Part shown: positions 4,351 to 16,636 of the stretch, piece by piece
Layout of the letters: every line of letters begins with the position of its first letter
How positions within the stretch are numbered: the first letter of the stretch is position 1
Virus record (IMG/VR): IMGVR_UViG_3300048436_000088
Coordinates: 1 to 20,553 of that record
Strand: one strand, 5' to 3'
DNA: 20,553 nucleotides
Source of the DNA: a virus
The notes under the pieces: model-generated
Database searches by the model: none
Seen by the model: the letters and a program-made list of their open reading frames with translations, nothing else
Told to the model about the DNA's origin: nothing
Program-made: the position numbers and the translations under genes

Positions 4351-4408
4351 CCTTTAAGTGAGAACGAAATCAGAAAAAGGAAACAATCAGACTTCAGGAT
4401 ACAATATA

Positions 4409-6586
4409 ATGAGTGTTATACGTTTTGACAATACTAAATCTAGTACCGCGCACGAATTAGTGCAGAAAATAAGTGACGAGGTTCCTCGCTCTGTACAAAT
4501 AGATATTCTCAGAGAGACATACCCAAACGGCAAAATTCGGGGGCATGATTTCTTTATCGGGTCACTTGGAGGAGAGTCTGGCGAAAGCCTAAAGATTGAT
4601 ATAAACCCTAGCAGTCCACACTTTATGCGTGGTCAGGACTTTAATGGCGGTGATGGCATCGGGGGAATCGTAAAGATTCTAATGGAAGCTCGCGGAATGA
4701 GGCTGCCAGAAATTAAAGAAATGTTCGGGTCATATATATCAGAAGATACACGCAGGCCTGTAAGAGAGCCGTCTTGGAAAATGCCTAATGGCGGGCTAAA
4801 CCTGAACAACTTGCCAACACCTCCTAGCCCTCCAGCTCAGGAAAAGGTTCGTATTGATGCGAACACACAGCATAATGGGCAATGGGATTATATTAGTCGT
4901 GACGGCGAAGTATTAGTTACAGTGCGCCGCTACGACATTGATGGCAAGAAAGAGTTTCGCCCGTGGATTCCAGGGGTTGCCTATCCGAAAGCGCCTGATG
5001 TTCGCCCGCTATATAATATCCCGAACATTTTGAATGAGCAGCGGGTGGTATGGGTGGAAGGCGAAAAGTGCGCTCAGGCCTTGATTGATGCTGGCATACC
5101 AGCTACATGTACTCTGGGCGGCGCAGGGGCGTTAACAAGAAAGAACGCAGAGAAGTTTGACTTCACGCCGTTGCGCGGTAAAGAGCTTCTTATCTGGCCC
5201 GATAATGATGACGCTGGACGCAGGCTCGCAGAAATTGTTCGGGAAGTCGCGCTGGATTCTGACGCCGACAGTGTAACCGTACTGCAACCTCCATCTGGCA
5301 AACCTCCCAAATGGGACGCCGCAGATGCAATAGAAGAAAGTTTTGATGTTGAAAGGTTCATTGCAAATGGGACTGGTAACACTCGCCGTTCTATCAACCT
5401 TCTTAATGATAGTCTTCTTATCTCACGCTTTAGTGGTGCTGCGCCTGTCCAGCAGTTTCTTGTAGACGGTACATTTCCCCTCGGGGTTCCTATTATCTTT
5501 GCGGCGGCTGGCGACAGTGGCAAGGGCATGATGACCCTAGACTTAGCCATGAAGGTTGCAGCAGGCAAGCCAGTTCAAAACGCTTTCGGGGGAATTGTTC
5601 GGGAGTTTGGGGATGTTGTTATCTTCACAGCAGAAGATGATGAATCGGAGATGCACAGACGTATTGAGCGTCTTGATGAATCGGGCTTGCGCTTTGACTA
5701 CCCGAACAAATTGCATGTAGTTCCGCTGCCAAACGTAGGCGGTGTGTTTCCTATACTACGAGAGAACATGGGCGACTACAGCGAGACGGATGAGTTCAAG
5801 AAGATATACGAGCAAATGCTACAGCTCGACAACCTCAAGCTTATTGTGTTTGACCCGTTAGCATCATTCGTACACGCAGACGTAAACTCAGACCCTGCCG
5901 CAGGTGCGGCTTTAACGGGCTTGTTGGCTCGGGTCGCCACAGAAACGGGGGCGGCTGTTATCGTATGTCACCATATGACGAAGGTACAGGGCGACAAGGT
6001 TGTGTCAAAGCCAGAAGAGGCACGCAATCTTATTCGGGGTACGTCTGCGCTTGTTGACGGCGTGCGTTGTGCGTTTGCTATCTGGCAGTTAGACGAGAAA
6101 ACGGCTCGCGGTAGATGCAATGACTTAGGCATAGAATACCAGCGCAACAGATGTTTTGACGGCGCAGTTGTGAAGTCAAACGGACCTGCAAACCGGGATA
6201 TCCGTAATTTTGTTCGGGATACACTCAGCGGGCTACTGCAAGACAGAACCGAACAAGTTCGCAATTTAGGGCAAAGTAATCAGGCGTCAGCTCGTAAAGA
6301 AGCGATGTTCCGTTGGATTCAAGACTGCGAAGCTGGAGGTCGGGCCCTGTGTCAGCAAGGGGGCGCTGATAGCATAATTCAACGATTGACGGACCATGAT
6401 GCACCTGCCTCCATTCAAAGTATTGGGCAGTGGACAGTTGACCAAATTGTTCGGGATTTGATTTCGGAGCGCCGTATTCAAAAGTTTAGGTTTACTACTA
6501 CGGGTGGGCAGAAGTGGCTCGGAACCATAAATGGCGTTATGAGCCGTGGTGAATATGAAGCAGTAACAGCGAGGGACAATGTATAA
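4409..6586 (+). CDS. TOPRIM primase fused to RecA-fold (RepA/AAA_25) helicase
   Basis: This 725-aa replication protein probably unwinds DNA and makes primers at the phage fork. An N-terminal region (1-110) resembles a primase zinc-finger domain but lacks the CHC2 cysteines. A TOPRIM core follows, with VEGEK (216-220, Glu217) and PDNDDAG (264-270). The C-terminal half is a RecA-fold ATPase: Walker A AAAGDSGKG (365-373), a TAEDD segment, Walker B IVFDP with Asp482, and CHHMTK (520-525), as in RepA/AAA_25 helicases. The last 60 residues look like a winged helix. The ATG at 4409 is chosen over a GTG at 4358 because AGGA precedes it and conserved sequence starts there. It overlaps the next gene by 8 nt. 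Four TTGTTCGGG motifs lie in it on the + strand and one on the - strand. Confidence 0.9.
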   Translation: MSVIRFDNTKSSTAHELVQKISDEVPRSVQIDILRETYPNGKIRGHDFFIGSLGGESGESLKIDINPSSPHFMRGQDFNGGDGIGGIVKILMEARGMRLPEIKEMFGSYISEDTRRPVREPSWKMPNGGLNLNNLPTPPSPPAQEKVRIDANTQHNGQWDYISRDGEVLVTVRRYDIDGKKEFRPWIPGVAYPKAPDVRPLYNIPNILNEQRVVWVEGEKCAQALIDAGIPATCTLGGAGALTRKNAEKFDFTPLRGKELLIWPDNDDAGRRLAEIVREVALDSDADSVTVLQPPSGKPPKWDAADAIEESFDVERFIANGTGNTRRSINLLNDSLLISRFSGAAPVQQFLVDGTFPLGVPIIFAAAGDSGKGMMTLDLAMKVAAGKPVQNAFGGIVREFGDVVIFTAEDDESEMHRRIERLDESGLRFDYPNKLHVVPLPNVGGVFPILRENMGDYSETDEFKKIYEQMLQLDNLKLIVFDPLASFVHADVNSDPAAGAALTGLLARVATETGAAVIVCHHMTKVQGDKVVSKPEEARNLIRGTSALVDGVRCAFAIWQLDEKTARGRCNDLGIEYQRNRCFDGAVVKSNGPANRDIRNFVRDTLSGLLQDRTEQVRNLGQSNQASARKEAMFRWIQDCEAGGRALCQQGGADSIIQRLTDHDAPASIQSIGQWTVDQIVRDLISERRIQKFRFTTTGGQKWLGTINGVMSRGEYEAVTARDNV

Positions 6587-6806
6587 AGCAGATGGATTTG
6601 ACAAGGCGATAATAGGATATTGCCGCATATGTGGACGCGAGGATGTGCTCGCATATGATTATTGGAAGTGCATTGAAATACTTCAAGAGCGCGATGGCAT
6701 GACATCAGACGAAGCCGTTGAGTATATGGAGTTCAATGTAATCGGGGCTTATGTTGGCGACCTAACGCCTGCATTTATTTACGAAACGGAGATAGAGGAT
6801 GAGTAA
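6579..6806 (+). CDS. Small hypothetical protein with a single CxxC
   Basis: This 75-aa acidic protein has one C-x2-C pair (CRIC, about residues 15-18) and ends in a Glu/Asp tail. It overlaps the primase-helicase gene by 8 nt and the next gene by 8 nt (GATGAGTAA junction), so it is part of the replication operon. The segment EYMEFNVIGAYVGDLTP is typical of small phage proteins of unknown role. One CxxC is too little to claim a zinc site unless it dimerises. Confidence 0.7.
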   Translation: MYKADGFDKAIIGYCRICGREDVLAYDYWKCIEILQERDGMTSDEAVEYMEFNVIGAYVGDLTPAFIYETEIEDE

Positions 6807-7023
6807 ATCTGCTGCTGATATGACAGTAGAAGAGTTCGCGGAAGAGCTTAAATCTATGCGGGAGAGAACCGTAAATATTACAGGCATTGAACGCGACAAG
6901 AACAATCGTTCGTATTTGGGCAAGCAGTCCAATAGAAAAGTATCGGGTGTATTTGCGTCCAAGCAAACAAAGCTTGCGATGAATCGCGGTAATAACGGAT
7001 TTACGAAGGGAAAATTTTTATGA
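6799..7023 (+). CDS. Small basic hypothetical protein
   Basis: This 74-aa protein has a helical acidic N-terminus (residues 1-25) and a basic, Asn/Gly/Lys-rich C-terminal half that looks disordered and could contact nucleic acid. It starts at ATG 6799 inside the end of the preceding gene and overlaps the following start by 4 nt. Such coupling on both sides is the main support for coding. No family was recognised. Confidence 0.65.
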   Translation: MSKSAADMTVEEFAEELKSMRERTVNITGIERDKNNRSYLGKQSNRKVSGVFASKQTKLAMNRGNNGFTKGKFL

Positions 7024-7310
7024 TTGACGAAAAAGACTACGATACCATGAATCGGGCATATTTTCTCGACAAGGCAGAAGAGCTTATTAATGGGCAGCGG
7101 GCAAAAGATTACGGTGACGCTAAAGCAAACCACTACCGTATCGCTCAAATGTGGGAGGTTATACTTGGAGTGGAGGTAACACCCGAACAAGTGTGTGCCT
7201 GCATGATTGGCCTGAAGCTTGCTCGCCTAGCTAACGACATGCAACAGGACGACACATGGGTGGATATCGCGGGTTATGCCGCGTTGGGCGGGGAGATGTC
7301 TCAAGGGTAA
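7020..7310 (+). CDS. DUF6378-like phage protein
   Basis: This 96-aa protein contains KAEELINGQRAKDYGDAKAN near residue 20, then a middle part with TPEQVCACMIGLKLARLAND and the C-terminal DDTWVDIAGYAALGGEM. This layout matches the DUF6378 family found in many phages, which is helical and of unknown biochemical role. The ATG at 7020 overlaps the previous stop in an ATGA arrangement, and the stop is followed within 6 nt by a long hairpin. It probably closes the replication operon. A nucleotide-pool or MazG-like role has sometimes been guessed for similar helical families, but nothing here proves it. Confidence 0.8.
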   Translation: MIDEKDYDTMNRAYFLDKAEELINGQRAKDYGDAKANHYRIAQMWEVILGVEVTPEQVCACMIGLKLARLANDMQQDDTWVDIAGYAALGGEMSQG

Positions 7311-7315
7311 AAAAA

Positions 7316-7348
7316 CAGGCGAGTTGTTCGGGGTTGCCCGCTCGCCTG
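7316..7348 (+). terminator. Long bulged hairpin after the replication operon
   Basis: CAGGCGAG (7316-7323) pairs with CTCGCCTG (7341-7348). Inside, CGGG (7329-7332) pairs with CCCG (7337-7340) around a GTTG loop, leaving TTGTT as a one-sided bulge. The tail is only CTTTCC. It may end transcription weakly or protect the mRNA 3' end. A copy of TTGTTCGGG forms the bulge and inner stem. Confidence 0.6.
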
Positions 7349-7440
7349 CTTTCCGTAAAGACATTCGTAACTTGTGATATATGCTTAGACATAACATATA
7401 TTACGGCCTGCCTGAACATCAGACAGAAGGGTATAATATC

Positions 7441-7668
7441 ATGGCGAACAAGACTTACAAGCAAAAACAACAAGAAGAAGAATATAATAAGTGGAAGCGC
7501 GAGCAACAACATAAGCTGCATGATTCAGAAGATTTGTTCGGGTTAAAACAGACACATCATACTAGACACGTTAACAAATATTGTTCGGTTTGCGGTAGCC
7601 CACAGGCTTGGCGCTCTTCCGACCACGGGACAACATGGCAATGCTGGGCACACGCAAAAGAGTTATAG
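7441..7668 (+). CDS. Small zinc-ribbon-like protein
   Basis: This is a 75-aa protein. The N-terminal half is Lys/Gln/Glu-rich and helical (residues 1-35). The C-terminal half contains YCSVCGSPQAW and then WQCWAHA, giving Cys-x2-Cys plus Cys and His as a possible zinc site. The ATG at 7441 is supported by AGAAGGG about 10 nt upstream; an in-frame ATG at 7381 has no such signal. It stands alone between the hairpin at 7316 and the next small gene. Its function is unknown; a DNA- or RNA-binding accessory role is possible. Confidence 0.7.
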   Translation: MANKTYKQKQQEEEYNKWKREQQHKLHDSEDLFGLKQTHHTRHVNKYCSVCGSPQAWRSSDHGTTWQCWAHAKEL

Positions 7669-7761
7669 CAAGGTACGCGCATCGGGATTCGCCTTGCCCA
7701 TCGGGGTACGAGTCTGGTACATTTCTACACTTTGGCGGTCATCATGGAAGAGGAGGCTACG

Positions 7762-7929
7762 GTGCGTGGATTCAAGAACCCGAACAATTTTACGATAGTG
7801 CAGCGGAACCCGCTCGCCCGAACAATTCGAAGCGCGGGATTCAGGACGCGGGTTGTGAAAAGCAAAAAGGGAAAAGGTTCGTATAAAAGAAAAGGGCGGT
7901 TTCAAGACCGCCCCTTTTCGTTTGTGTAA
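7762..7929 (+). CDS. Short basic phage protein, GTG start
   Basis: This 55-aa, very basic protein begins MRGFKNPNNF and continues through RNPLARTIRSAG to KSKKGKGSYKRKG. Short basic proteins with an NP-x-A-R pattern are common in marine phages and have no known role. The GTG at 7762 is chosen because an excellent AGAGGAGG lies at 7750-7757; an ATG at 7744 has no such site. Unusually, the last 11 codons are the terminator hairpin at 7894-7913 and the stop lies beyond it. Two reverse-strand copies of TTGTTCGGG lie in the gene. A longer ORF in another frame (7608-7886) has no ribosome binding site and was not chosen. Confidence 0.65.
   Translation: MRGFKNPNNFTIVQRNPLARTIRSAGFRTRVVKSKKGKGSYKRKGRFQDRPFSFV
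7892..7918. terminator. Bidirectional terminator between converging genes
   Basis: GGGCGGT (7894-7900) and ACCGCCC (7907-7913) form a stem with a TTCAAG loop. It is followed by CTTTT on the + strand and by a T-rich run (CTTTTCTTTT) on the - strand. It sits where the + operon ending at 7929 meets the - operon ending at 7902, so it could stop transcription both ways. Confidence 0.8.
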
Positions 7930-8087
7930 TCTTCTTGTATCTTGCCCTGACCATGCAGATAAGTTCCATATGTTCCTGTTCGAGAGCGGTAACGCTGGTC
8001 AATCTCTTGACCATATTCCCACTCATCAAACTCTTTATCGAGCAATAAGATTTTTTCCCATGCCATTCCCTCTACCCAATATGTCAT
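7902..8087 (-). CDS. Small hypothetical protein coupled to the metalloprotease
   Basis: This 61-aa protein contains VEGMAWEKILLLDKEFDEWEY near its start and ends GKIQEDYTNEKGRS; it is acidic and mostly helical. Its ATG at 8087 overlaps the TGA of the metalloprotease gene (8084-8086) in an ATGA junction, so the two are co-translated. An upstream ATG at 8108 has no ribosome binding site. It ends inside the bidirectional terminator. The function is unknown; as the second gene of a two-gene reverse operon it may help or regulate the protease. Confidence 0.65.
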   Translation of the reverse strand: MTYWVEGMAWEKILLLDKEFDEWEYGQEIDQRYRSRTGTYGTYLHGQGKIQEDYTNEKGRS

Positions 8088-8455
8088 GCTGGAAATAATT
8101 CCCCCCATCTGTTCTTTTGTTTATCTGTCCAGCCATAACTGTCCATAGCTTGCCGCATGATGCGCTCGGCTGTATCTGTCCATACCAGAGCATTCTGTCG
8201 CGCCCATACCCATGCCCATAACTCAGCAGTTAGCCGTGAGCGGCTCTGATACTCGCCAAGGACATGCCCTAACTCATGCAGGGCCGAAACATAGTAGCCT
8301 GTATTCTTAGTCGGCCTAATGCAAATTTCTTTTGTTGCAGGACGCGCCCAATAGCGCGGTACTGCATCGTGCATAGATTGATACTTCACCTTAATATCAT
8401 TCTCAGCGCAAAGCTGTTGAACGTGTAAGGCCATTTCAATTCGTTTTACTGTCAT
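8084..8455 (-). CDS. ImmA/IrrE-like zinc metalloprotease
   Basis: This 123-aa protein has a zinc-protease motif HELGH at residues 60-64, with Glu78 (in TAELWAW) as a candidate third ligand. The small size and phage setting resemble ImmA-type proteases, which cleave XRE-family phage repressors to trigger induction. An XRE protein is encoded at 13484, so cleavage of that regulator is a testable guess. The start at 8455 has a good AAGGG site upstream. With its 61-aa partner this is the only reverse-strand transcription unit. Its promoter region is shared with the divergent GGCT-fold gene and has a perfect TTGACA -35 (8520-8525 read on the - strand). It could also be a general peptidase with another target. 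Confidence 0.75.
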   Translation of the reverse strand: MTVKRIEMALHVQQLCAENDIKVKYQSMHDAVPRYWARPATKEICIRPTKNTGYYVSALHELGHVLGEYQSRSRLTAELWAWVWARQNALVWTDTAERIMRQAMDSYGWTDKQKNRWGELFPA

Positions 8456-8471
8456 TTTCTTTTCCCTTCAA

Positions 8472-8483
8472 GAAATATGTTTC
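8472..8483. promoter_or_regulatory. GAAA-N4-TTTC palindrome in the divergent promoter region
   Basis: GAAATATGTTTC is an inverted repeat with GAAA/TTTC arms. It lies 17 nt upstream of the metalloprotease start codon (on the - strand) and just upstream of the + strand promoter. The same pattern recurs inside the promoters at 10712 and 13194, so it is a candidate binding site for one shared regulator. Confidence 0.5.
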
Positions 8484-8490
8484 TTTATGC

Positions 8491-8519
8491 TTTACATTAC
8501 TATTATCATATGTTATCAT
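8491..8519 (+). promoter_or_regulatory. Sigma70-like promoter of the GGCT-fold gene
   Basis: TTTACA (8491-8496), a 17-nt spacer and TATCAT (8514-8519) form a good sigma70-type promoter 42 nt before the start at 8561. The direct repeat TTATCATATGTTATCAT overlaps its -10. On the opposite strand TTGACA (8520-8525) is a perfect -35 for the metalloprotease, though the best-spaced -10 (TAGTAA) is weak. Confidence 0.6.
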
Positions 8520-8560
8520 TGTCAATAATAAAAGTGAAACAAATATCAAAAAGGAAAAGA

Positions 8561-9061
8561 ATGATGTTTAATAAAAAGTTAAAGCACGCCTGTAAGGCTT
8601 ATGACAAACGCCTGTATCTGGCCTACGGTTCTAACCTTAATGTGCGCCAGATGGCGTACCGCTGCCCTACTGCTAGGCCTGTGGGTGCGGCTATGATTTA
8701 CGGATGGGAGCTATGCTTTCGCGGCGTAGCTGATATTATTAAGTCTAGCGACCCTAAAATGGTATTGCCTGTGGGTATTTGGGAAATTGAGCCAGCAGAT
8801 GAATATGCGCTAGATGCATATGAAGGCTACCGACCTGACACTCCTAGTGAAGGGCTGTACGATAAGATTAAGGTGGCTGGTATTATGACCTACCAGATGA
8901 CGCGCAGAGACATTGCGAAGCCTAGCCAGCAGTATTTTAATACAATTTTAGAGGGCTACCACGATTTTGGTCTAGACACTAACTATTTGCTAGATGCGGC
9001 AGGTTGGGCGCAATATGAAGAAGAACAGCGTGATAACGTGTTCGGATTGGAGATTGCATAA
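8561..9061 (+). CDS. Gamma-glutamylcyclotransferase-fold protein (GGCT/AIG2-like)
   Basis: This is a 166-aa protein with the hallmark YGSNL loop (Tyr22-Leu26) that binds the gamma-glutamyl substrate, a middle beta-barrel (PTARPVGAAMIYGWELCFRG), and LDAYEGY with Glu88 as the likely catalytic acid. Family enzymes release 5-oxoproline from gamma-glutamyl peptides or amines. A phage copy could cut isopeptide or gamma-glutamyl linkages. An amidoligase is encoded about 2.6 kb downstream, and such pairs are known from comparative studies of amidoligase neighbourhoods. AAGGA (8551-8555) supports the ATG at 8561; the next codon is also ATG. The gene starts a + operon with its own promoter, divergent from the metalloprotease. 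Confidence 0.88.
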   Translation: MMFNKKLKHACKAYDKRLYLAYGSNLNVRQMAYRCPTARPVGAAMIYGWELCFRGVADIIKSSDPKMVLPVGIWEIEPADEYALDAYEGYRPDTPSEGLYDKIKVAGIMTYQMTRRDIAKPSQQYFNTILEGYHDFGLDTNYLLDAAGWAQYEEEQRDNVFGLEIA

Positions 9062-9074
9062 TGAGGGGGTACAG

Positions 9075-9329
9075 ATGAAACATTTCGATGAACTATTGCT
9101 GGAAGGGGGCTATCGAGCCCCCTCACCAGTTTGCAAAGCAGTTTATGAAGATATCAACGTAATGATTAGAAAAGCCAAAGAGGGGCTTTCTGACGCTGAA
9201 TGGAATGGTGCAGAATATTGGTTGCTAAATAATAAGCGCAACTGGCTAAAGTTTCTGCTCATGGAAAAGCGAAGAGGAGTAGAGCGGTTTATGATTGGTA
9301 TCGAAGCAATTAAGGGGATTACAAAATGA
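9075..9329 (+). CDS. Small hypothetical protein
   Basis: This 84-aa, predominantly helical protein is rich in Lys, Glu and Trp (AEYWLLNNKRNWLKFLLMEK in the middle). It has no recognised family and no membrane segment. The ATG at 9075 has a strong GAGGGGG just upstream; an earlier in-frame ATG at 8994 lies within the GGCT-fold gene and is unsupported. It overlaps the next gene in an ATGA junction at 9326. Confidence 0.7.
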   Translation: MKHFDELLLEGGYRAPSPVCKAVYEDINVMIRKAKEGLSDAEWNGAEYWLLNNKRNWLKFLLMEKRRGVERFMIGIEAIKGITK

Positions 9330-9517
9330 TTTATCGCGGTTTATCTTGGGGATGCCTTTTGTTCGGGTTATTCCTGTTCTGGTCATCTTGGGAAATTGTT
9401 CGGTTTCAGCAATCACCTAGCGAAATTATTGCCATGTTGTTTATCGGAATGATGGGTGCTGTAGTCGGCGCTTTTGGATTGTTCGGGTTGTGGGAATGCT
9501 GGCAAAAAAGAGGGTGA
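9326..9517 (+). CDS. Small two-helix membrane protein
   Basis: This 63-aa protein has two clear transmembrane stretches, about residues 4-22 (LSWGCLLFGLFLFWSSW and flanks) and 34-58 (IIAMLFIGMMGAVVGAFGLFGLW), joined by a short polar loop, and ends in QKRG. The size and topology fit small holins or other phage inner-membrane proteins, but no endolysin is adjacent, so a holin call is speculative. It overlaps the preceding gene by 4 nt. Two exact copies of TTGTTCGGG (9359 and 9479) and one TTGTTCGG lie within it. Confidence 0.7.
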   Translation: MIYRGLSWGCLLFGLFLFWSSWEIVRFQQSPSEIIAMLFIGMMGAVVGAFGLFGLWECWQKRG

Positions 9518-9520
9518 TTT

Positions 9521-9724
9521 ACTTTGGTACTTTGGGTTTGGAAAAACAAAGTAGATTTACCAAAGTTACTAATTGTTTGTTTTCAATGCCTTACAGAGCA
9601 ACTTTGGTAACTTTGGTTTTAACCCAATATCTCACCAAAGTTAGGTTAAGTAACTGAAAACATTTGTACTTTGGTAACTTTGGTAACTTTGTATATATAT
9701 ATATATATGGGGACATACCAAAGT
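9521..9724. repeat. Iteron-like ACTTTGGTA array with TA tract
   Basis: ACTTTGG units occur on the + strand at 9521, 9529, 9601, 9610, 9668 and 9677, with a partial unit at 9686. Inverted units (ACCAAAGT) lie at 9559, 9634 and 9717. Within clusters the period is 9 bp (8 bp for the first pair). A run of TA dinucleotides (about 9692-9708) follows the last + unit. The array fills the gap just before the small terminase gene. It could be a terminase recognition (pac/cos) site, a replication origin or an autoregulatory operator. Confidence 0.8.
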
Positions 9725-9735
9725 CCCCCATATAT
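9697..9735 (+). repeat. Strong hairpin upstream of the small terminase gene
   Basis: TATATATGGGGAC pairs with GTCCCC-C-ATATAT, leaving one bulged C. The GGGGAC (9709-9714) / GTCCCC (9723-9728) core closes a loop that contains an inverted ACCAAAGT unit. There is no U-tract, so it is not a terminator. It could extrude as a cruciform next to the repeat array or shape the mRNA leader. Confidence 0.7.
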
Positions 9736-9757
9736 TAGTTAGAAAGGAAGTGGCGAT

Positions 9758-10273
9758 ATGCCCAAAGTCGGAGAGAGTTTAACGAAGGAACAAACTGCTG
9801 TAGGCATGGAGCGATTAAAGCCTCAACAGCAAAAGTTTTTGGATTTGTATTTTAACGGAGATAAAACTCAAACCGCATCCGCGAGAGAAGCTGGTTACAA
9901 AAACCCTGCTGTAGCGGCTGTAAGACTGCTCAGAAACCCCATAGTGCAAGAACGCCTAGAGGAGATGCGCCTAGAGGCTAGAACGAAGTATGGCGTCACT
10001 GTAGACAAGTCTGTGCGCGACCTAAAAAAGATGCGAGACGAAGCGTGGGAGATGGGTAAATTTGGCGAAGCAATCCGCGCTGAAGAGCTTAGATTGAAGG
10101 CAACAGGGCTACTCGTAAATAAAAGCCATGTAATGCATGAAGATGTAACGCAGATGGGAAGGGAGCAAGTGCTTGAAAAGCTTGCAGAGTTTCAGCGCAT
10201 GGCAGAGCGTAGGATGAAGAACGTAACGCAAGAACAAGAAGATGTTGTAGAGATAACTGATGATAACGAATAA
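9758..10273 (+). CDS. Terminase small subunit
   Basis: This 171-aa protein begins with a DNA-binding helical domain: LKPQQQKFLDLYFNGDKTQT, then ASAREAGYKNPAVAAVRLLR (about residues 20-66), the classic small-terminase helix-turn-helix pattern of the Terminase_2 family. A helical oligomerisation region and an acidic tail (residues 155-171) follow. It would recognise phage DNA and start packaging with the large subunit. The large subunit is encoded 6.4 kb away, which is unusual. A good ribosome binding site (GAAAGGAAG) precedes the ATG. The repeat array immediately upstream is an attractive binding site, since small terminases often bind in or near their own gene. Confidence 0.85.
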   Translation: MPKVGESLTKEQTAVGMERLKPQQQKFLDLYFNGDKTQTASAREAGYKNPAVAAVRLLRNPIVQERLEEMRLEARTKYGVTVDKSVRDLKKMRDEAWEMGKFGEAIRAEELRLKATGLLVNKSHVMHEDVTQMGREQVLEKLAEFQRMAERRMKNVTQEQEDVVEITDDNE

Positions 10274-10670
10274 ACCCATAATCGGGCATATAATACCGTT
10301 TTCGCGGGGAGACGGGGAACATCGGGCCCAGAATCGGGGTTTTGTTCGGGTAATCGGGCCTCGGGGTGGCTGCCTCGGGGCCTTTTTTGCGTGCAGCGCT
10401 CGGTCGGGCCCAAATTGTTCGGGTTATCGGGGCCGGGGCAGCCCGGCGACCCGTAAAATTGTTCGGGTTAGGCCCCGGCAGCCTGGTGAATCGGGGTTCG
10501 AGCCAGGCGTGCAGCGCCGGGGAATCACGAGCTCATTAACAATTGTTCTGCTCAGGCCCCCCCGGCTCTCCTGCGGAACAATTGTTCGCCCCCCGCCCCC
10601 GGGCTGTCCTGCGGAACAATTGTTCGAGCTGCGCCGGGGAATTAGAAAGTCAGTTCCTGAATCGTCTGCT
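10274..10670. repeat. GC-rich non-coding block with palindromes and direct repeats
   Basis: This stretch is much richer in G and C than its surroundings and has many ATCGGG, TCGGGG and TTGTTCGGG elements. GAACAATTGTTC occurs perfectly at 10576-10587 and 10614-10625 and with one mismatch at 10537-10548. The two perfect copies lie in a 20-bp direct repeat, TCCTGCGGAACAATTGTTCG, at 10569 and 10607. Open frames across it have no ribosome binding site and translate to Gly/Pro/Arg-rich sequence, so it is judged non-coding. GGGGCCTTTTTT near 10376-10387 could be part of a terminator for the small terminase, but no clean stem was found. Confidence 0.65.
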
Positions 10671-10675
10671 GCGGG

Positions 10676-10691
10676 TGTCAAATGTTTGACA
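10676..10691. promoter_or_regulatory. Palindromic operator TGTCAAA-N2-TTTGACA
   Basis: TGTCAAATGTTTGACA is a perfect inverted repeat with 7-bp arms and a 2-nt centre, ending 20 bp before the -35 of the promoter at 10712. It matches the six-site cluster at 12947-13186 and is the best copy of that family. Confidence 0.7.
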
Positions 10692-10711
10692 TAAAAAAGT
10701 GCATTTTTTTC

Positions 10712-10740
10712 TTGATTGTGTGAAAATAGTTTCCTATACT
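10712..10740 (+). promoter_or_regulatory. Sigma70-like promoter with palindrome in the spacer
   Basis: TTGATT (10712-10717), a 17-nt spacer and TATACT (10735-10740) form a good promoter for the genes at 10781 and 11116. The spacer holds GAAAATAGTTTC (10722-10733), a GAAA-N4-TTTC site placed as in the promoter at 13194. Confidence 0.75.
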
Positions 10741-10780
10741 ATTATTATAGTGTGAACGAAACCAACTAAACGAGGACGAC

Positions 10781-11116
10781 ATGGACTACAAAAGAGAAGA
10801 GATTGAAGAGCACTTCGACGATTGGCTAGCCGAAACAATGCAGGCGCAAGGCCATGAGTGGATTAAAGATAACTTAGACGACCTACATCATCACGCTTTC
10901 AACACAGACTACTACATTATCGGCACAGAACGCGCCATTAACTGGATGGGCAGTTACGTATTCGACATCATTAACTTTATTAAAGAGTACGAGCAGGACA
11001 ACTTCGGCGAGGTGTCAACTGACCTTACCTCTCCTGAGCACATCGTTAACATGTACGCTTATATTATTGGCGAAGAAGTCGTAAGTAATTACCGCTGTGA
11101 GCAGGAGGCGGCGTGA
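10781..11116 (+). CDS. Acidic phage hypothetical protein
   Basis: This 111-aa strongly acidic protein is rich in Asp, Glu, His and Tyr. Features are LDDLHHHAFNTDYYIIG (about residues 32-48) and a helical C-terminal half including IKEYEQDNFGEVSTDLTSPE and VNMYAYIIGEEV. Similar proteins are widespread in marine phages and uncharacterised, as far as I recognise. GAGGACGAC just before ATG 10781 is a good ribosome binding site. It is the first gene of a two-gene unit driven by the promoter at 10712 and ended by the terminator at 11308. Strong acidity could suggest DNA mimicry, but that is a guess. Confidence 0.75.
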   Translation: MDYKREEIEEHFDDWLAETMQAQGHEWIKDNLDDLHHHAFNTDYYIIGTERAINWMGSYVFDIINFIKEYEQDNFGEVSTDLTSPEHIVNMYAYIIGEEVVSNYRCEQEAA

Positions 11117-11259
11117 TGAGAAATTACCTAGTTACATTGACTCGCGGCGGGCGGTCTTTCTACGTTACAGCTAGCAGCTCTCGTGCAGCAGAGCAAATTG
11201 TTCTGGATTTTGAGCCGTACTACAACCCAGATTGGGGGCTCGTGGTTCGGGATGCCTAG
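11116..11259 (+). CDS. 47-aa hypothetical protein
   Basis: This very short gene starts at ATG 11116, overlapping the last base of the preceding TGA, with an ideal AGGAGG at 11103-11108. The product begins MRNYLVTLTRGGRSFYVTAS and ends DWGLVVRDA. It reads as a small beta-alpha-beta protein with a helix around SSRAAEQIVLDF. The good ribosome binding site, stop-start coupling and sensible composition support it. The terminator lies 49 nt after the stop. The function is unknown. Confidence 0.65.
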   Translation: MRNYLVTLTRGGRSFYVTASSSRAAEQIVLDFEPYYNPDWGLVVRDA

Positions 11260-11307
11260 AAATGTTCGGGTCGGCGGCCCGTAATCCGCCGTGTTTCCTC
11301 CCAACTG

Positions 11308-11332
11308 GGCCCGCTTCGGCGGGCCTTTTTTT
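11308..11332 (+). terminator. Rho-independent terminator with TTCG tetraloop
   Basis: GGCCCGC (11308-11314), loop TTCG, GCGGGCC (11319-11325), then seven T residues. It closes the two-gene unit of 10781-11259. Confidence 0.93.
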
Positions 11333-11569
11333 GCTGCGGGCCAGGGAGGGTGAACAATTGTTCGGGGCCCGGGCAGCACAGCAGTTGGAGCTCGGGACAT
11401 CGGGGTATCGGGGATTTAGGTAATGGTATTTGTATAGGCTGCTAAACTGTTATTGGTAATGGTATAGGATGGAAAACCCGCCGAAATCCGCTGAAATCCG
11501 GCGCGAAAATTAATTTTCAGAAAAATAAAAAAGCCAATGTTTTCAGCAGGATAACCCGTACAATTGTTC
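11333..11569. other. Non-coding gap before the amidoligase with palindromes and short repeats
   Basis: No gene was found between 11260 and 11652. Beyond the terminator this stretch holds a perfect GAACAATTGTTC (11352-11363), GGTAATGGTAT twice (11419 and 11455), GAAATCCG twice (near 11483 and 11492), a perfect 14-bp palindrome GAAAATTAATTTTC (11505-11518), and a degenerate GTACAATTGTTC (11558-11568) abutting the promoter at 11570. The composition shifts from GC-rich to AT-rich across it. It appears to be a regulatory leader. Confidence 0.55.
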
Positions 11570-11598
11570 TTGTTTGCAACTTGTTTCTTTGATATACT
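11570..11598 (+). promoter_or_regulatory. Sigma70-like promoter of the amidoligase gene
   Basis: TTGTTT (11570-11575), a 17-nt spacer and TATACT (11593-11598) precede the amidoligase gene, leaving a leader of about 50 nt. The half-palindrome GTACAATTGTTC lies directly upstream of the -35. Confidence 0.6.
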
Positions 11599-11652
11599 GT
11601 GTAGGCTAGGGCTTGCCCTTGCATTGTGAAACGTAAAAAGGAAACAAAAACA

Positions 11653-12891
11653 ATGACTTACTGGAAGCAAGATTACACATTACCAACATTTGGCGCGGAA
11701 TTAGAATATTATTTTTCTAGCTCAGGGTGTCAGTCAATTCGCAAAGTTGAGGAAACCTTACATCAGGCTGGCTTTACATGGCTACAAGTTAAGCCAGATG
11801 GCACTGTTGAGGTAGACGTTGAAATAGTAACCCCTCCATTGCCAGACGTTCCGCAAGTGTGGGCTGATTTATCTGCTATTATGGAAATATGCAAAAGCCT
11901 AGGTTTGAAGTATCGCAAGAAATGCGGCTTGCATATCCATATTGGCAAGAAACGCCTAAAGCCAGCCGTTAATATTGACGCATACATTGAGCATGTAAAG
12001 CAACGCGCGTCTAGTGTTAGCTTTTTAATGCCTAGCGAAGATTGGTTTGCTGGCGCGGATATGTCACCCAAGCTTGTTAAAGACGTCATAAGACGCTATG
12101 CAATGCACCAAAGCGCTATAGACGATTTTATGCCGCTATCGCGTGGGGACAACAGCGCAGGGCGCGAAAACTATATGTTCAGGGGTATGGCAAGAGCGGT
12201 GAACGAATTCGCTTCGCGTTTTGAAGCTTGCCAGACTATATCAGATTTGCGCGATTTTAATTCAATAGGGCGTTCTGGCAAATATAACGCTATTAACCTC
12301 GAGACATGGAACAAGGGCACTGTTGAATTCCGCCAGCATCCTAGCACGTTATCGTCTGGCAAGGTTAGGAATTGGGTGCGGTTTCTGATTACTCTTATTG
12401 AGACATCAGATAGAGAGCGCGTAAACTATGGGCAAGTGATTGCCAGCCAGCCAGCACCCGTTGAAACTGAAACCACCTATCAAACGCCTGAGTGTCCTTA
12501 TCGTCATTCAAGCAATATTGGCATGTTATACCGCTCTTGCCGCATTGAGGGGGGCGCAACGGTACGCCAGCTAATGAATATCACTGGCATGGGTGCTGAT
12601 AATATCCGCGCCCGCATTTCTGAGATTAGAAACGCGATAGGGCAAGACGCTGTTCTAACTTATACGCAACAACAATACAATCACCGCTACGGCGCGTCTG
12701 GTGGTAGCCATGACCTAGGCGGCTATGAGATACTGCAAGAGGTAACAAGGCGCGAGATAGCCCCTCAAAACGCTGTAGAGGGTGATTTATTGCCTAGCGA
12801 TATAATAGGTAGCGATAGCATATGGCACGGCCTACCATATGATATCGTTCAATATTTTCAGTCAGGACGCGTAACATCAACGCGCCTATAG
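11653..12891 (+). CDS. Amidoligase (Amidoligase_2, glutamine-synthetase-like)
   Basis: This 412-aa protein is a COOH-NH2 ligase of the GS-like amidoligase family. Visible signature blocks are FGAELEYYF (from residue 13, Glu in the first metal site), KPDGTVEVDVEIVTPPL (47-63), CGLHIHIG (91-98), and NKGTVEFRQHPSTL (220-233, Glu225 and Arg227). These enzymes use ATP to form amide bonds between a carboxylate and an amine, and in phages are proposed to modify proteins, cell-wall peptides or metabolites. Residues about 300-345 (ATVRQLMNITGMGADNIRAR) look like an added helix-turn-helix-like domain. ATG 11653 is preceded by AAGGA about 11 nt upstream; an in-frame GTG at 11626 is less likely. It is transcribed alone, between its own promoter and a strong terminator. 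The likely partner is the GGCT-fold gene at 8561. Confidence 0.88.
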   Translation: MTYWKQDYTLPTFGAELEYYFSSSGCQSIRKVEETLHQAGFTWLQVKPDGTVEVDVEIVTPPLPDVPQVWADLSAIMEICKSLGLKYRKKCGLHIHIGKKRLKPAVNIDAYIEHVKQRASSVSFLMPSEDWFAGADMSPKLVKDVIRRYAMHQSAIDDFMPLSRGDNSAGRENYMFRGMARAVNEFASRFEACQTISDLRDFNSIGRSGKYNAINLETWNKGTVEFRQHPSTLSSGKVRNWVRFLITLIETSDRERVNYGQVIASQPAPVETETTYQTPECPYRHSSNIGMLYRSCRIEGGATVRQLMNITGMGADNIRARISEIRNAIGQDAVLTYTQQQYNHRYGASGGSHDLGGYEILQEVTRREIAPQNAVEGDLLPSDIIGSDSIWHGLPYDIVQYFQSGRVTSTRL

Positions 12892-12937: not shown

Positions 12938-12946
12938 GTCTTGTCA

Positions 12947-13186
12947 AGCCAAACATTTGACAGCTAATGCGCCAGATTATTGACATGTGCAGCCAGGGTG
13001 TCAAAAAATTGACGCGGCTTGCAGGCAATAAAAAGTGTAATGTTTACAGCGTTTTACAGGTACCCTAGGCCCTATTCTGAAAATCCAACGGGTCAAATTA
13101 TTGACGCCGCACCCCCCATTTAGGGGGTTGACTGTCAAAAAATTGACGCGCCCTGTTTTCCACTAACAATCGTCAACTTTTTGACG
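12947..13186. repeat. Cluster of six 16-bp TGTCAAA-type operator sites
   Basis: Sites begin at 12947 (14/16 match to a perfect palindrome), 12970 (more degenerate), 12999, 13091, 13133 and 13171. The copies at 12999 and 13133 are identical (TGTCAAAAAATTGACG); 13091 reads GGTCAAATTATTGACG and 13171 reads CGTCAACTTTTTGACG. The last site ends 7 bp before a promoter. No gene lies between 12892 and 13251. The array could be the operator region of the downstream XRE regulator or an iteron-type replication origin. A seventh copy lies at 10676. Confidence 0.8.
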
Positions 13187-13193
13187 TTACCTC

Positions 13194-13225: not shown

Positions 13226-13251
13226 AGAAACAACAGGTCATGGAGGGCAAG

Positions 13252-13503
13252 ATGACTAAGTATAAGATTACTGCCGGAGAAGAGTTCTCCTGGGAGGCGC
13301 ACACGGACGATGGTTTCGTTGACGGTTTGCGTAAGTATTCAAGGTATCCAAGTGATGACAATGTTAGGATGATGCGGACGATGGCAGCTAGCTTCTGCGA
13401 TTGGACGGGCAAATCGTTTCGCTTTTCTAGCGTGGATGATTTTGTTTCTGATTGCGTTCAGCATGGCGTTATGGAGGTTTCTGATGCAGAACGGACGCGG
13501 TAA
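13252..13503 (+). CDS. Small acidic hypothetical protein before the XRE gene
   Basis: This 83-aa protein contains EEFSWEAHTDDGFVDGLRKY and a helical C-terminal part with SVDDFVSDCVQHGV. No family was recognised. ATG 13252 is chosen because GGAGGG (13241-13246) is ideally spaced; an ATG at 13240 overlaps that site. It overlaps the XRE gene by 20 nt, so the two are co-expressed from the promoter at 13194. Small proteins next to phage repressors can be antirepressors or accessory factors, but nothing in the sequence proves this. Confidence 0.7.
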   Translation: MTKYKITAGEEFSWEAHTDDGFVDGLRKYSRYPSDDNVRMMRTMAASFCDWTGKSFRFSSVDDFVSDCVQHGVMEVSDAERTR

Positions 13504-13870
13504 GAGCAAGTATTCATCGTGGACGCCGGATGATTTAACTAATTTCCGTAAGGACGCGGGCCTTAGTCGCCGTGAGGTAGCGGAGAGCTTGGGTGTTTCG
13601 TACAGAATGTACTGCTATTATGAAAGTGGGCACACAAAAATAGACTTGCCGCTTGAGTATGCTGTGCGATGGTTGACCAGACCAAAAGAAAATAAACCTG
13701 TGGTTGAGAACAAAGGCCAAGGTACCCTGACCCCGTTTCAAAAAGAGCGGATAGACCGCTTGTTGAATGGAATTCGTGCATACCCCATAGGCGATATGGA
13801 TGAGAAGGGGCAGAAAATTTTATCACAATGCGTTGACGAGATTTCAACCTTGGTCGAGGTGGTTGCCTGA
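13484..13870 (+). CDS. XRE-family transcriptional regulator
   Basis: This 128-aa protein has an XRE/Cro-C1 helix-turn-helix at residues about 17-65: DDLTNFRKDAGLSRREVAES, then LGVSYRMYCYYESGHTKIDL, ending in a typical amphipathic helix. The C-terminal part (70-128) is helical and may be for dimerisation; no peptidase domain is seen, so self-cleavage is not expected. ATG 13484 has GGAGG about 7 nt upstream. The palindrome clusters flanking it (six sites upstream, one after the gene over the late promoter) are natural candidate operators. The ImmA-like protease at 8084 could act on it. Whether it is a lysogeny repressor or a late-gene switch cannot be decided from sequence. Confidence 0.85.
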   Translation: MQNGRGKSKYSSWTPDDLTNFRKDAGLSRREVAESLGVSYRMYCYYESGHTKIDLPLEYAVRWLTRPKENKPVVENKGQGTLTPFQKERIDRLLNGIRAYPIGDMDEKGQKILSQCVDEISTLVEVVA

Positions 13871-13921: not shown

Positions 13922-16633
13922 ATGATGCAAAATAACTTAATGGGTGGCGGGATGGCAGGTCCAACTACTGCTCCCGCCAACCCCACAGGTTTAAATTTCC
14001 AAAGCGACCCATCTATGAGAGCTCAGTTCAAGGGCTTTATGTCAGGGATGCAGGCTAAGCAGCCTGCTCCTATGGCTCCTTCTCCTATGCAGGCTCCTTT
14101 GCCGATGCCTGCGGCTATGCAGAATGTGGACATTTTTCAGCCGCAACCGATGCAGATGCAGATGGGCGGTGCTGTACCGCGTCAGGCGATGATGGGTGGT
14201 ATGCCGCACATGCTTTCTTACATTACTCCCGGTGAAGCTGCTGCGCTTAGCGCGATGGGCGGCACTGGTCAGCGTGGCCCTGGCGGTGTTCCGTCATTTA
14301 GTTATGAAGATGAAGCTTTTGGCGGGGCAAGTTCATCTGCGGGTTTTGGTGGCAGCACTAATTTCAGCTCTGGTGGGTATGAGGACGCGGCTTTTGGCGG
14401 TTCTGACAACGAGGGTAATGTATTTTACGACACGCTTGGTAATACTACAAACTTTAAAACTACAACACCTGACACATCATTATCTGCTGACAGAGCGGCT
14501 ACGCAGGATGCTTTGTCTACAATGTTGGCGGCTGAAGCTTTACAGCAAGACCGTGATAAGCAAGAGGCTTTGGCTAAAGAAATTACGGCTCTTGGTGGTG
14601 CTGCTGACATTACCGAGGGTTTTGGCCCGATGAGTCAGGTTATTGGCGCGTCTCAAATGCCGATGGACCCGACAGAGTTTGCCAGAGGCAATGTTAAGTC
14701 TATTCGTGATTCGATAGATTCTCTTGCTCAAGCGGACCTATTAAACGAAGTAGTTGGTACAGACTACAGTGACCCGACTTTAGCGCCGACAAATGCGCGG
14801 ACTGTTGACATTGCTGGTCCTTTATCGCGTCCTAGCACGTTAGTTGATTATTCTGACCCAACACAGGCTTCTAAATTTGTAGACATTACAGGTCCTGCTT
14901 CTCGCCCTAATTACGTTGCTCCAAACATCCCTACTATGACTCCTGACGAGCGCAGAGAGATGGAGCTTGACGAGCTTGGGATATCAGGCAACACAATTGG
15001 CGGCGTTGACCAAGTTGGCGTTACTGTAGGCGCACCTAGTGTTGGCCCGCAGCCTGGCAATTTAGGCGCTTTGGGCGAGGGTTCATTCCCCTCAGCTCCT
15101 AATGTGCCCACCTCAGACGGCATTGTACGCACAGAAGCTGGGTCTACTAATAGAATAGCTGATTCCGGGCTTGGTACTGGAGAAATTACCGATGCGGCTG
15201 GCTCTCGTCAGCCCGAGGACCGTCAAGGTTTCTTTACGACTTTGCTTGACACTATGACAGGCAGGGAGTTTCCTACTGACTTGCAAAAAGAGCAGAATAT
15301 TGTTGATGCCAATAACCGCCGCACCACCATTACGGGCGATGAGCGGCGTCAGGATATGAGCGCACTTGACCAGTTAGCAAAACGTGCTGGTCAAGAAGGC
15401 AGTGGTATTCTTGGCGCGTTTACAAATTTTGGCGCTAAAAATGCTGCTAAGATGTACAATGACATTGTGAACAACGGCTATGAGCCTGTTTATGATAACA
15501 AAGGTCAAATTGTAGCCACAAAAGTTCCTGGTACGAACATTCTAGGCAGTGGTTCTGTAGAGGGTCGTATTCCTGGTGCCAATACAGGCGGAGGTGGCGG
15601 TGGTTCATCGCGCCCGGCCCCAGCCCCGCAACCTTCTGTTGCTGATTTAGTTGCGGCAGAGATGGCGAAGTTACAGCCAGCGGCTCCGGCACCGACTCAA
15701 ACTGCGCCGACACCTATAATCCCTGCTGCTGTAAATGCAGGGCCTCGCGCTCCGGCTACTGGCGGGAGTCCTCTAGGGTTCGGTTATGGTCAGTTGCGTA
15801 GAATTCCGGGGATATCTTCTAACCTAAACACGGCTGCGGATGATTTCTTAAATCTTCTTGGCGGTTCTAACGTGCAGAATTTTGCTAGAGGCGGTAATGT
15901 CTCTAACGATTTGGATGCATTTGGTGGCGCTGGACCTGATGTGGGGTTTGAGGGTAGCGGCAGAGGCACTTTCTCTGGCGGCTCTTATTCTGAGAACCCT
16001 TTTGACAGTAGCGATGACGACAATGTGGCACCAACAGTAGCCCCTGGCAGTTTTATAACCAATCAATCGCCTCAAGACGATGGGTATAATATTAATACCA
16101 CTCAAGCTAACCAGATGAACCAGCAGGCGAACAGAGACAAGGTTGCTAGAGACATTGCGATGGATGAGCAGCGTAGGTCTATGGAAGCCGCGCAAAGAAA
16201 TCAAAGCCTTAAAGCCAGCATTGACCGTTTGAATCAATTGCAGGCGCAAGTTAATGCGCCTCAGCAGGGGATTATGAGCGCCGCTGCTGATTTGTTGGGC
16301 TTTGGCGGACAGCAAAACTTGTTAAGCGCTGACTTGGCTCAAGGTGGAGTATCACCGCAGAATATGACGCCTAATACATCTGTCATGGGTTACAACGACC
16401 CAACTGGTCAGGTACAGAATCAGACTGGCGCTGCGAATCAAAGCATATATCAAACCGCTGACCCAGCTCAAGCTGGCATTGCTGGAACAATGAATGTTCC
16501 TACATCTCGAGATACTGGCTTTTTTGATGCCTTGTCTGGCATGGCGAGCAACTTGCCTAGCCTTTCGCAAATAGGCAACCGCATTATGGGCACAAGGCCT
16601 GACTACGACATGAGTAGGATGAATTCTCAATAG
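13922..16633 (+). CDS. Large Gly/Pro/Ala-rich low-complexity protein, likely virion-associated
   Basis: This is a 903-aa protein, mostly predicted disorder and rich in Gly, Ala, Pro, Gln, Asn and Met, with no catalytic motif, signal peptide or membrane helix. An N-terminal block reads ITPGEAAALSAMGGTGQ then GPGGVPSFSYEDEAFGG. YEDEAFGG/YEDAAFGG is repeated near residues 127 and 153, and DYSDPT-x-A...VDI-x-GP-x-SRP near 281 and 308. A helical Gln-rich stretch lies near residues 720-780. Comparable proteins occur near the terminase in marine phages; an internal or structural virion role is inference. It is the first gene of the late operon, with GAGG upstream of ATG 13922, and ends 3 nt before the large terminase gene. 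Confidence 0.75.
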   Translation: MMQNNLMGGGMAGPTTAPANPTGLNFQSDPSMRAQFKGFMSGMQAKQPAPMAPSPMQAPLPMPAAMQNVDIFQPQPMQMQMGGAVPRQAMMGGMPHMLSYITPGEAAALSAMGGTGQRGPGGVPSFSYEDEAFGGASSSAGFGGSTNFSSGGYEDAAFGGSDNEGNVFYDTLGNTTNFKTTTPDTSLSADRAATQDALSTMLAAEALQQDRDKQEALAKEITALGGAADITEGFGPMSQVIGASQMPMDPTEFARGNVKSIRDSIDSLAQADLLNEVVGTDYSDPTLAPTNARTVDIAGPLSRPSTLVDYSDPTQASKFVDITGPASRPNYVAPNIPTMTPDERREMELDELGISGNTIGGVDQVGVTVGAPSVGPQPGNLGALGEGSFPSAPNVPTSDGIVRTEAGSTNRIADSGLGTGEITDAAGSRQPEDRQGFFTTLLDTMTGREFPTDLQKEQNIVDANNRRTTITGDERRQDMSALDQLAKRAGQEGSGILGAFTNFGAKNAAKMYNDIVNNGYEPVYDNKGQIVATKVPGTNILGSGSVEGRIPGANTGGGGGGSSRPAPAPQPSVADLVAAEMAKLQPAAPAPTQTAPTPIIPAAVNAGPRAPATGGSPLGFGYGQLRRIPGISSNLNTAADDFLNLLGGSNVQNFARGGNVSNDLDAFGGAGPDVGFEGSGRGTFSGGSYSENPFDSSDDDNVAPTVAPGSFITNQSPQDDGYNINTTQANQMNQQANRDKVARDIAMDEQRRSMEAAQRNQSLKASIDRLNQLQAQVNAPQQGIMSAAADLLGFGGQQNLLSADLAQGGVSPQNMTPNTSVMGYNDPTGQVQNQTGAANQSIYQTADPAQAGIAGTMNVPTSRDTGFFDALSGMASNLPSLSQIGNRIMGTRPDYDMSRMNSQ

Positions 16634-16636
16634 GCG

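Follow-up and report, generated by a model that had tools for sequence, protein, structure and literature searches.

A strand-oriented DNA signal with a TCGGG core fills one zone of a marine phage contig and may be tied to packaging initiation

The window analysed here is an entire viral contig of 20,553 bp, probably a fragment; a circular assembly of ~54 kb is known for one relative. The zone of interest runs from a helicase gene, through several small ORFs and the small terminase gene terS, to an amidoligase gene, and holds the following features.

4358-11625, no strand assigned: zone rich in TTGTTCGGG and in strand-polar TCGGG, ending abruptly on the right at the amidoligase gene (pooled density, zone-versus-outside counts)
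5235-5243, plus strand: TTGTTCGGG in the helicase gene, which 30 of 33 near relatives have at the identical alignment column
5595-5603, plus strand: TTGTTCGGG in the helicase gene, present in 6 of 33 near relatives
5701-5709, minus strand: TTGTTCGGG in the helicase gene, present in 33 of 33 near relatives
6210-6218, plus strand: TTGTTCGGG in the helicase gene, column common to 17 near and 8 far relatives
6447-6455, plus strand: TTGTTCGGG in the helicase gene, column common to 28 near and 10 far relatives
7182-7190, minus strand: exact TTGTTCGGG in the small ORF 7020-7310
7324-7332, plus strand: exact TTGTTCGGG, intergenic
7534-7542, plus strand: exact TTGTTCGGG in ORF 7381-7668
7779-7787, minus strand: exact TTGTTCGGG in the ArfA-like ORF
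7817-7825, minus strand: exact TTGTTCGGG in the ArfA-like ORF
9359-9367, plus strand: exact TTGTTCGGG in ORF 9326-9517
9479-9487, plus strand: exact TTGTTCGGG in ORF 9326-9517
9758-10273, plus strand: terS, small terminase subunit, putative reader of the signal (phrog_51, E=1.7e-14; Terminase_2, E=2.3e-6)
10282-10495, plus strand: dense TCGGG array after terS, 12 copies and 0 on the other strand, with TTGTTCGGG at 10342, 10415 and 10459
10356-10383, plus strand: intrinsic-terminator-like hairpin within the array
10538-10626, no strand assigned: 38-bp tandem repeat with palindromic AACAATTGTTC (10539, 10576, 10614)
11352-11366, plus strand: GAACAATTGTTCGGG, a full palindrome holding the last exact TTGTTCGGG (11358, plus)
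11392-11412, plus strand: terminal TCGGG triplet (11392, 11400, 11408)
11555-11572, no strand assigned: CCCGTACAATTGTTCTTG, the final palindromic site, which precedes the amidoligase gene

The 16 exact copies of TTGTTCGGG reported in an earlier sequence-only reading were recovered in full (12 on the plus and 4 on the minus strand), against a mean of 0.21 and a maximum of 2 in dinucleotide shuffles. Nor are many other 9-mers equally over-represented, the outcome which that reading had set against itself: TTGTTCGGG ranks first by count in the 20,553-bp window and, apart from its own overlapping variants, only ATATATATA (9) and ACTTTGGTA (6) exceed five occurrences, so that shuffles and ranking together exclude chance or k-mer bias as the source of the excess. 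The limits it had drawn, 5.2 and 11.4 kb, hold for the exact copies but not for one-base variants, which carry the zone further left (ATGTTCGGG at 4722, 5021 and 3954; TTGTTCGGC at 2627), and the zone is better described as beginning where the helicase gene does (4358) and reaching the promoter region of the amidoligase gene (~11.6 kb).

Counts in relatives against a codon-shuffled null, the check that the same reading had proposed, gave a strong excess at shared alignment columns of the primase/helicase gene, with turnover between clades. The helicase gene of the window holds 5 copies where codon shuffles predict 0.26, and the pooled relatives hold 121 versus 6.6 and 32 versus 2.2 expected in this gene (15-18x), which upholds the claim that the word is independent of protein sequence. 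Its codons in the primase/helicase gene are synonymously frozen (0.92 versus 0.64, p=2e-9), and helicase-gene sites on the two strands are conserved equally. Codon-shuffle excess and synonymous freezing exclude protein constraint as the cause. In most IMG/VR relatives, at GC contents of 33-52%, TTGTTCGGG is among the commonest 9-mers. Judged from these comparisons, TTGTTCGGG is a real word, maintained by selection at the DNA level over ~150 related contigs.

TTGTTCGGG is the strong form of a larger, strand-oriented signal with the core TCGGG. Within the zone, TCGGG occurs 499 times on the plus and 78 times on the minus strand (104 kb, pooled), and outside it 38 and 54 times (162 kb, pooled). 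When pooled by distance, its density is highest in the arrays that follow terS and in those that precede the amidoligase gene, drops to ~0 at this gene, and fades leftward across ~10-13 kb from this right edge; the circular 54-kb relative likewise has a polar zone that ends sharply on the right. On the late side of four phages, plus-strand TCGGG was observed 0 times where ~12 were expected, and in this window none lies to the right of the 11392-11412 triplet. Individual positions turn over while density persists. In inverted genes the word is found on the genome plus strand 27 times versus 12.2 expected, and in gene sense once versus 2.0 expected; since polarity thus tracks the genome strand even there, it is probably as DNA that the signal is read. 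A genome search returned two full-length relatives only, both in MAG contigs (50-53% identity); among distant relatives polarity is 17:2 in a Maricaulis-labelled MAG contig and a weaker 25:10 in a Rhodobacteraceae-labelled one, binning being uncertain for these labels. The DNA-level signal proposed in the sequence-only reading therefore stands, in view of its conserved positions, synonymous constraint and gene-strand-independent polarity, while its suggestion of an uptake signal is unsupported, the word being confined to a zone rather than spread genome-wide; that reading had also overlooked the strand-polar core, the gradient across the zone, its abrupt end on the right and the dense arrays next to terS.

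The array directly downstream of terS is present in all 40 distinct terS relatives (53-100% identity), each with at least 7 plus-strand TCGGG within 700 bp after terS, and adding up to 487 copies on the plus and 32 on the minus strand. Spacing is semi-regular and flexible, at 6-8 bp. No Rfam family was matched and the folding z over the array downstream of terS is -1.5, setting aside a structured RNA, and a G-quadruplex was set aside by inference, isolated single TCGGG words being selected within coding DNA. The noncoding sites combine a strong half (TTGTTCGGG) with a weaker mirror half, in keeping with the link to GAACAATTGTTC drawn earlier. These pseudo-palindromic sites have a gene end or a terminator on one side and the next promoter-like sequence on the other, the full palindromes adjoining promoter-like sequences, and a promoter-like site (10712-10740) lies downstream of the 38-bp tandem repeat. 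Noncoding sites are co-oriented with transcription (51:5); helicase-gene sites lie on both strands.

A Terminase_2-family TerS is encoded alongside the repeats, and it also matches SF6 TerS structures (E about 5e-4). The SPP1 pac contains direct repeats near terS, and each DNA-binding domain (DBD) of SF6 TerS occludes 3-5 bp (PMC4737164). Akin to SPP1/SF6 pac, the window combines this TerS family with short direct repeats near terS and a site before the late genes; the differences from pac are that its word also occupies coding DNA for ~7-10 kb upstream, keeps a strict polarity and, further downstream, is avoided on one strand. A second likeness is found in a cousin lineage, the HTVC027P-type pelagiphages, whose TerS is related to that of the window (29% identity) and whose terS-terL interval carries a polar array of another 5-mer, CAAGC. 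The CAAGC array differs in its word, in its almost exact period of one word per 7 nt and in showing no spread into coding DNA; CAAGC avoidance elsewhere in HTVC027P was not significant, and the passages of the pelagiphage literature that we consulted make no mention of the array. HTVC027P and HTVC023P share a host strain, yet the CAAGC array is confined to the HTVC027P TerS lineage, and therefore a phage-encoded reader is favoured.

Most likely, the signal helps the phage to start packing its DNA or to protect it. Our leading but tentative reading, which we hold to be possible rather than probable, is that the words serve as sites for a DNA-reading system that the phage encodes and that is linked to the initiation of packaging, with the SF6/SPP1-type TerS as the likeliest reader. 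TTGTTCGGG would be the strongest recognition word of a system acting in the stretch that separates the replication genes from the terminase, and the arrays, densest immediately downstream of terS and immediately upstream of the amidoligase gene and late block, would form a pac-like region of packaging nucleation. The TerS ring, like that of SF6/SPP1 TerS, would present many weak helix-turn-helix domains, each spanning 3-5 bp, such that runs of 5-bp words raise affinity; polarity would fix the direction of packaging towards the late genes, and scattered upstream copies would be weaker sites. Several observations tell against this: (i) the DBD of SF6 TerS binds DNA nearly without sequence specificity (PMC4737164); (ii) pac has no obvious need of selected copies 5-10 kb away inside the helicase gene, nor of GTTCGGG conserved there on both strands; (iii) the 6-8 bp spacing mismatches the helical repeat; (iv) arrays are also found ahead of promoter-like sequences, as regulatory sites are; and (v) related TerS proteins occur in the HTVC023P and 023Pt lineages without a clear dense array there. 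The contig ends show no clustering, which speaks against fixed genome ends and is uninformative on packaging starts. A bolder version, which we regard as speculative, is a lineage-specific five-letter code read by TerS in one orientation (TCGGG here, CAAGC in HTVC027P relatives), in which arrays beside terS and, here, a fading coding gradient and downstream-strand erasure would specify one start and one direction; a rule by which every TerS lineage would carry an array of its own is unsupported, 2 of 4 TerS lineages lacking a clear one.

Rather doubtful, in our estimate, is a Chi-like reading, in which TCGGG would stop degradation and start recombination by a helicase-nuclease entering from a right-hand packaging cut, either a host enzyme of AddAB/RecBCD type or a phage Cas4-like exonuclease, GTTCGGG being a separate protein site. 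Strict genome-tied polarity, decay from a sharp edge and position turnover at kept density all suit it, as do the Sak4- and Cas4-type recombination proteins encoded by the phage and the concentration of Chi between replication genes and packaging site in lambdoid phages (PMC3784561). Orientation dependence, which Chi also has, is seen here as a bias of occurrence only (the 499:78 ratio and the inverted genes). Unlike lambdoid Chi, the window has its 5-mer in dense semi-regular arrays and a palindromic strong form, and this reading does not account for the rightward avoidance, for the spacing of 6-8 nt or for the GTTCGGG palindromes; retention of the word over GC 33-52%, and the array difference between HTVC023P and HTVC027P in one host strain, also count against it. 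For Chi in alphaproteobacteria we found nothing usable in the literature.

We find it similarly hard to favour a phage repressor or activator dimer that would bind GAACAATTGTTC palindromes beside promoters, with scattered half-sites acting as stoperator-like elongation blocks. The placement of the pseudo-palindromic sites and their 51:5 agreement with transcription support it, and cluster A mycobacteriophage stoperators are likewise numerous, short, asymmetric and oriented (PMC9283540), with transcription in noncoding DNA. The window differs in that its sites occupy one zone, rather than the whole genome, as also in the circular relative, lie in both orientations in coding DNA with equal conservation in the helicase gene, and come with extra 5-mer arrays. 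TCGGG polarity does not track gene strand. Moreover, a PHROGs scan of 20 ORFs of the circular relative gave no integrase or lysogeny gene, and the HTH gene at 13436 adjoins other inverted repeats (TTGAC type). The Gram-positive LexA box is GAAC-N4-GTTC, and the palindromic window sites read GAACAATTGTTC in the same manner, but the majority of copies consist of one half with GGG after it: exact GAACAATTGTTC occurs 3 times and the exact half-site 9-mer 16 times, at odds with a full GAACNNNNGTTC box. Nothing points to a Gram-positive host, the distant genome relatives being alphaproteobacterial MAG contigs, and the alphaproteobacterial LexA direct repeat (GTTC-N7-GTTC) occurs 0 times on the plus and once on the minus strand of the 20.5 kb.

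An origin or partition system, with an initiator or a ParB/omega-like protein on double-stranded 9-mers and neighbouring short-word arrays, seems improbable. The zone does encode a RepA-type primase-helicase, immediately before terS lie a TA tract and direct repeats of ACTTTGGTA, and the 5+2 heptad array of the cousin lineage resembles omega-type heptads; set against these are a spread across 10 kb, the lack of a TCGGG polarity switch at the candidate origin and the absence of a ParA/ParB gene among the families scanned. We give very little credence to a mark that acts on early transcripts at the mRNA level (UCGGG read by an RNA-binding protein or cut in RegB-like fashion), which would suit the strand polarity, late-gene avoidance and flexible spacing, but was dropped as leading reading once polarity proved to follow the genome strand (27 versus 1 in minus-strand genes), and conflicts with both-strand conservation of GTTCGGG. 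Type III restriction strand bias fits the polarity, not the enrichment.

Should the signal be Chi-like, it would point the way to a recombination signal in a marine bacterial group for which we found none described. As for packaging, little about pac signals is well defined, and SF6-type TerS is believed to recognise the shape of DNA and not its sequence. A strand-polar, codon-kept word in ~150 contigs, together with its different but analogous counterpart in a related pelagiphage family that is very abundant, would open the way in which TerS finds its genome to direct testing.

The 9-mer TTGTTCGGG, for which the sequence-only reading had reported 16 copies with fewer than one expected, indeed occurs 16 times in the window (12 on the (+) and 4 on the (−) strand) compared to 0.21 in shuffled sequence. 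It is the commonest 9-mer of the window and, rather than many equally over-represented words, only ATATATATA and ACTTTGGTA exceed five copies besides TTGTTCGGG and its overlapping variants. At most loci of relatives collected through HEL (the primase/helicase gene), TTGTTCGGG or its variant AATTGTTCG likewise ranks among the top 9-mers. The earlier claim that protein sequence does not explain the motif was upheld when codons were shuffled within each gene: for near relatives, HEL contained 121 copies compared to 6.6 expected, and for far relatives 32 compared to 2.2. In this and the other comparisons of relatives, many contigs are akin and only partly deduplicated, so that the counts do not represent independent events, and gene calls are mechanical ORFs. 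HEL sites share alignment columns across relatives (among near relatives, e.g., 5701(−) in 33/33 and 5235 in 30/33); the columns used by the far clade differ in part. Codons within conserved sites are synonymously frozen (0.92 vs 0.64 for other codons of conserved residues, p=2e-9). The TGTTCGG core was not enriched in the TerL relatives HTVC023P, HTVC027P, 023Pt_psg01 and DSL-LC04 (1 to 4 copies per 50 kb). The TTGTTCGGG excess is neither coding nor chance.

The window comprises a viral contig over its full length of 20,553 bp and is probably a fragment. Besides small ORFs, it carries genes for Sak4, a phrog_2300 protein and a Cas4-type exonuclease, together with the following features:

4358-6586, primase-helicase with RepA-type ATPase domain (HEL)
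9758 (start), terS, small terminase subunit
10356-10383, terminator-like hairpin inside the TCGGG array
11307-11326, terminator-like hairpin inside a TCGGG array
11626-12891, amidoligase, conserved in block, as is a gamma-glutamyl cyclotransferase-like gene (8477-9061)
13436, HTH protein
16637, terL

An ArfA-like ribosome-rescue ORF (7732-7929; PF03889, E=1.7e-10) carries a strong hairpin (~7890-7919) within its 3' end, resembling bacterial arfA, where such a hairpin mediates truncated-mRNA control. HTVC027P gp30, adjoining terS, is likewise ArfA (PMC12753301). Immediately 5' of terS (9519-9730), ACTTTGGTA/ACCAAAGT direct repeats and then a (TA)n tract form a possible origin of iteron-like character. 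In several relatives, (TA)n words rank among the top 9-mers as well. TGTCAA..TTGAC inverted repeats at 12945-13190, upstream of the HTH operon (13240-13870), and at 10673-10688, upstream of a gene at 10781, are likely operators of the HTH protein.

When the word-enriched zone, from HEL to the amidoligase promoter region, was compared with the remainder of twelve contigs (104 kb vs 162 kb, borders drawn after data inspection), the top zone word was TCGGG on the (+) strand (499 copies vs 38 outside). On the (−) strand it numbered 78 and 54, falling to background without GTTCGGG copies (29 and 50). In HEL, near relatives held 297 (+) copies (63 expected) and 70 (−) copies (38 expected), and far relatives 192 (51 expected) and 27 (29 expected). 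With GTTCGGG left aside, density was 6.8/kb over the final kb ahead of the amidoligase gene, dropped to 0.0/kb over the first kb of that gene, and decayed leftward unevenly over 10-13 kb. On the late side of four phages (+) TCGGG was avoided (0 observed vs 4.5, 2.9, 2.8 and 1.9 expected), and (−) copies showed no avoidance. A 54,137-bp circular relative has one main zone, at 8-17 kb, with 36 of its 46 (+) copies. This genome (L278-L280) closes through a 127-bp end overlap, has all ORFs of at least 100 aa on one strand, and encodes a DNA methyltransferase, an HNH endonuclease, a portal and a major head protein.

Minus-strand genes within the zone carried 27 TCGGG on the genome (+) strand (12.2 expected) and 1 on their own sense strand (2.0 expected). 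Because inverted genes thus keep the word on genome (+) and not in gene sense, the signal is most likely read as DNA, an argument that is strong but, as the counts are modest, not final.

At least seven (+) TCGGG lie within 700 bp 3' of terS in 40/40 distinct relatives (pooled, 487 (+) vs 32 (−)), and this array, whose spacing peaks at 6-8 nt, holds down to 53% TerS identity. Terminator-like hairpins are followed by palindromic ACAATTGTTC sites and then promoter-like sequences; the final cluster usually precedes an inverted or palindromic site shortly 5' of the amidoligase promoter region. In noncoding sites the right half is strong, and its mirror image on the left is weaker.

HTVC027P, a pelagiphage of a cousin lineage, and most of its IMG/VR relatives have strictly polar CAAGC arrays between terS and terL, with an almost invariant 7-nt period; GCTTG/CAAGC heptad arrays occur in 76/80 relatives found by TerS and 78/80 found by gp33. 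Those of HTVC027P (L090), two of which adjoin promoter-like sequences of gp33/gp34, are:

16506-16627, GCTTG/CAAGC polar heptad array
17396-17435, GCTTG/CAAGC polar heptad array
17719-17733, GCTTG/CAAGC polar heptad array

HTVC023P-type and 023Pt-type TerS lineages showed no clear dense array, although 023Pt itself has a GCTCG cluster; noncoding gaps at 15371-17826 of 023Pt_psg01 (L089) hold several GCTCG copies, then GGGCCCACCC..CCCC. HTVC027P and HTVC023P share one host strain, a point against explaining the CAAGC array by a plain host Chi.

A role in packaging would make the SF6-like TerS the candidate reader of an array that adjoins terS, points toward the late genes and is followed by (+) TCGGG avoidance downstream. 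In its favour, one SF6 DNA-binding domain covers 3-5 bp and SPP1 pac contains direct repeats; against it, binding by this domain is nearly sequence-independent (both PMC4737164). A Chi-like function would rest on the strand polarity and gradient of TCGGG, akin to lambdoid phages, in which Chi is concentrated between replication genes and packaging site (PMC3784561). Alternatively, the palindromes, which adjoin promoter-like sequences, may be regulatory sites, with oriented stoperators as precedent (PMC9283540). It is possible that more than one reader is involved, one for polar TCGGG and another for palindromic GTTCGGG.
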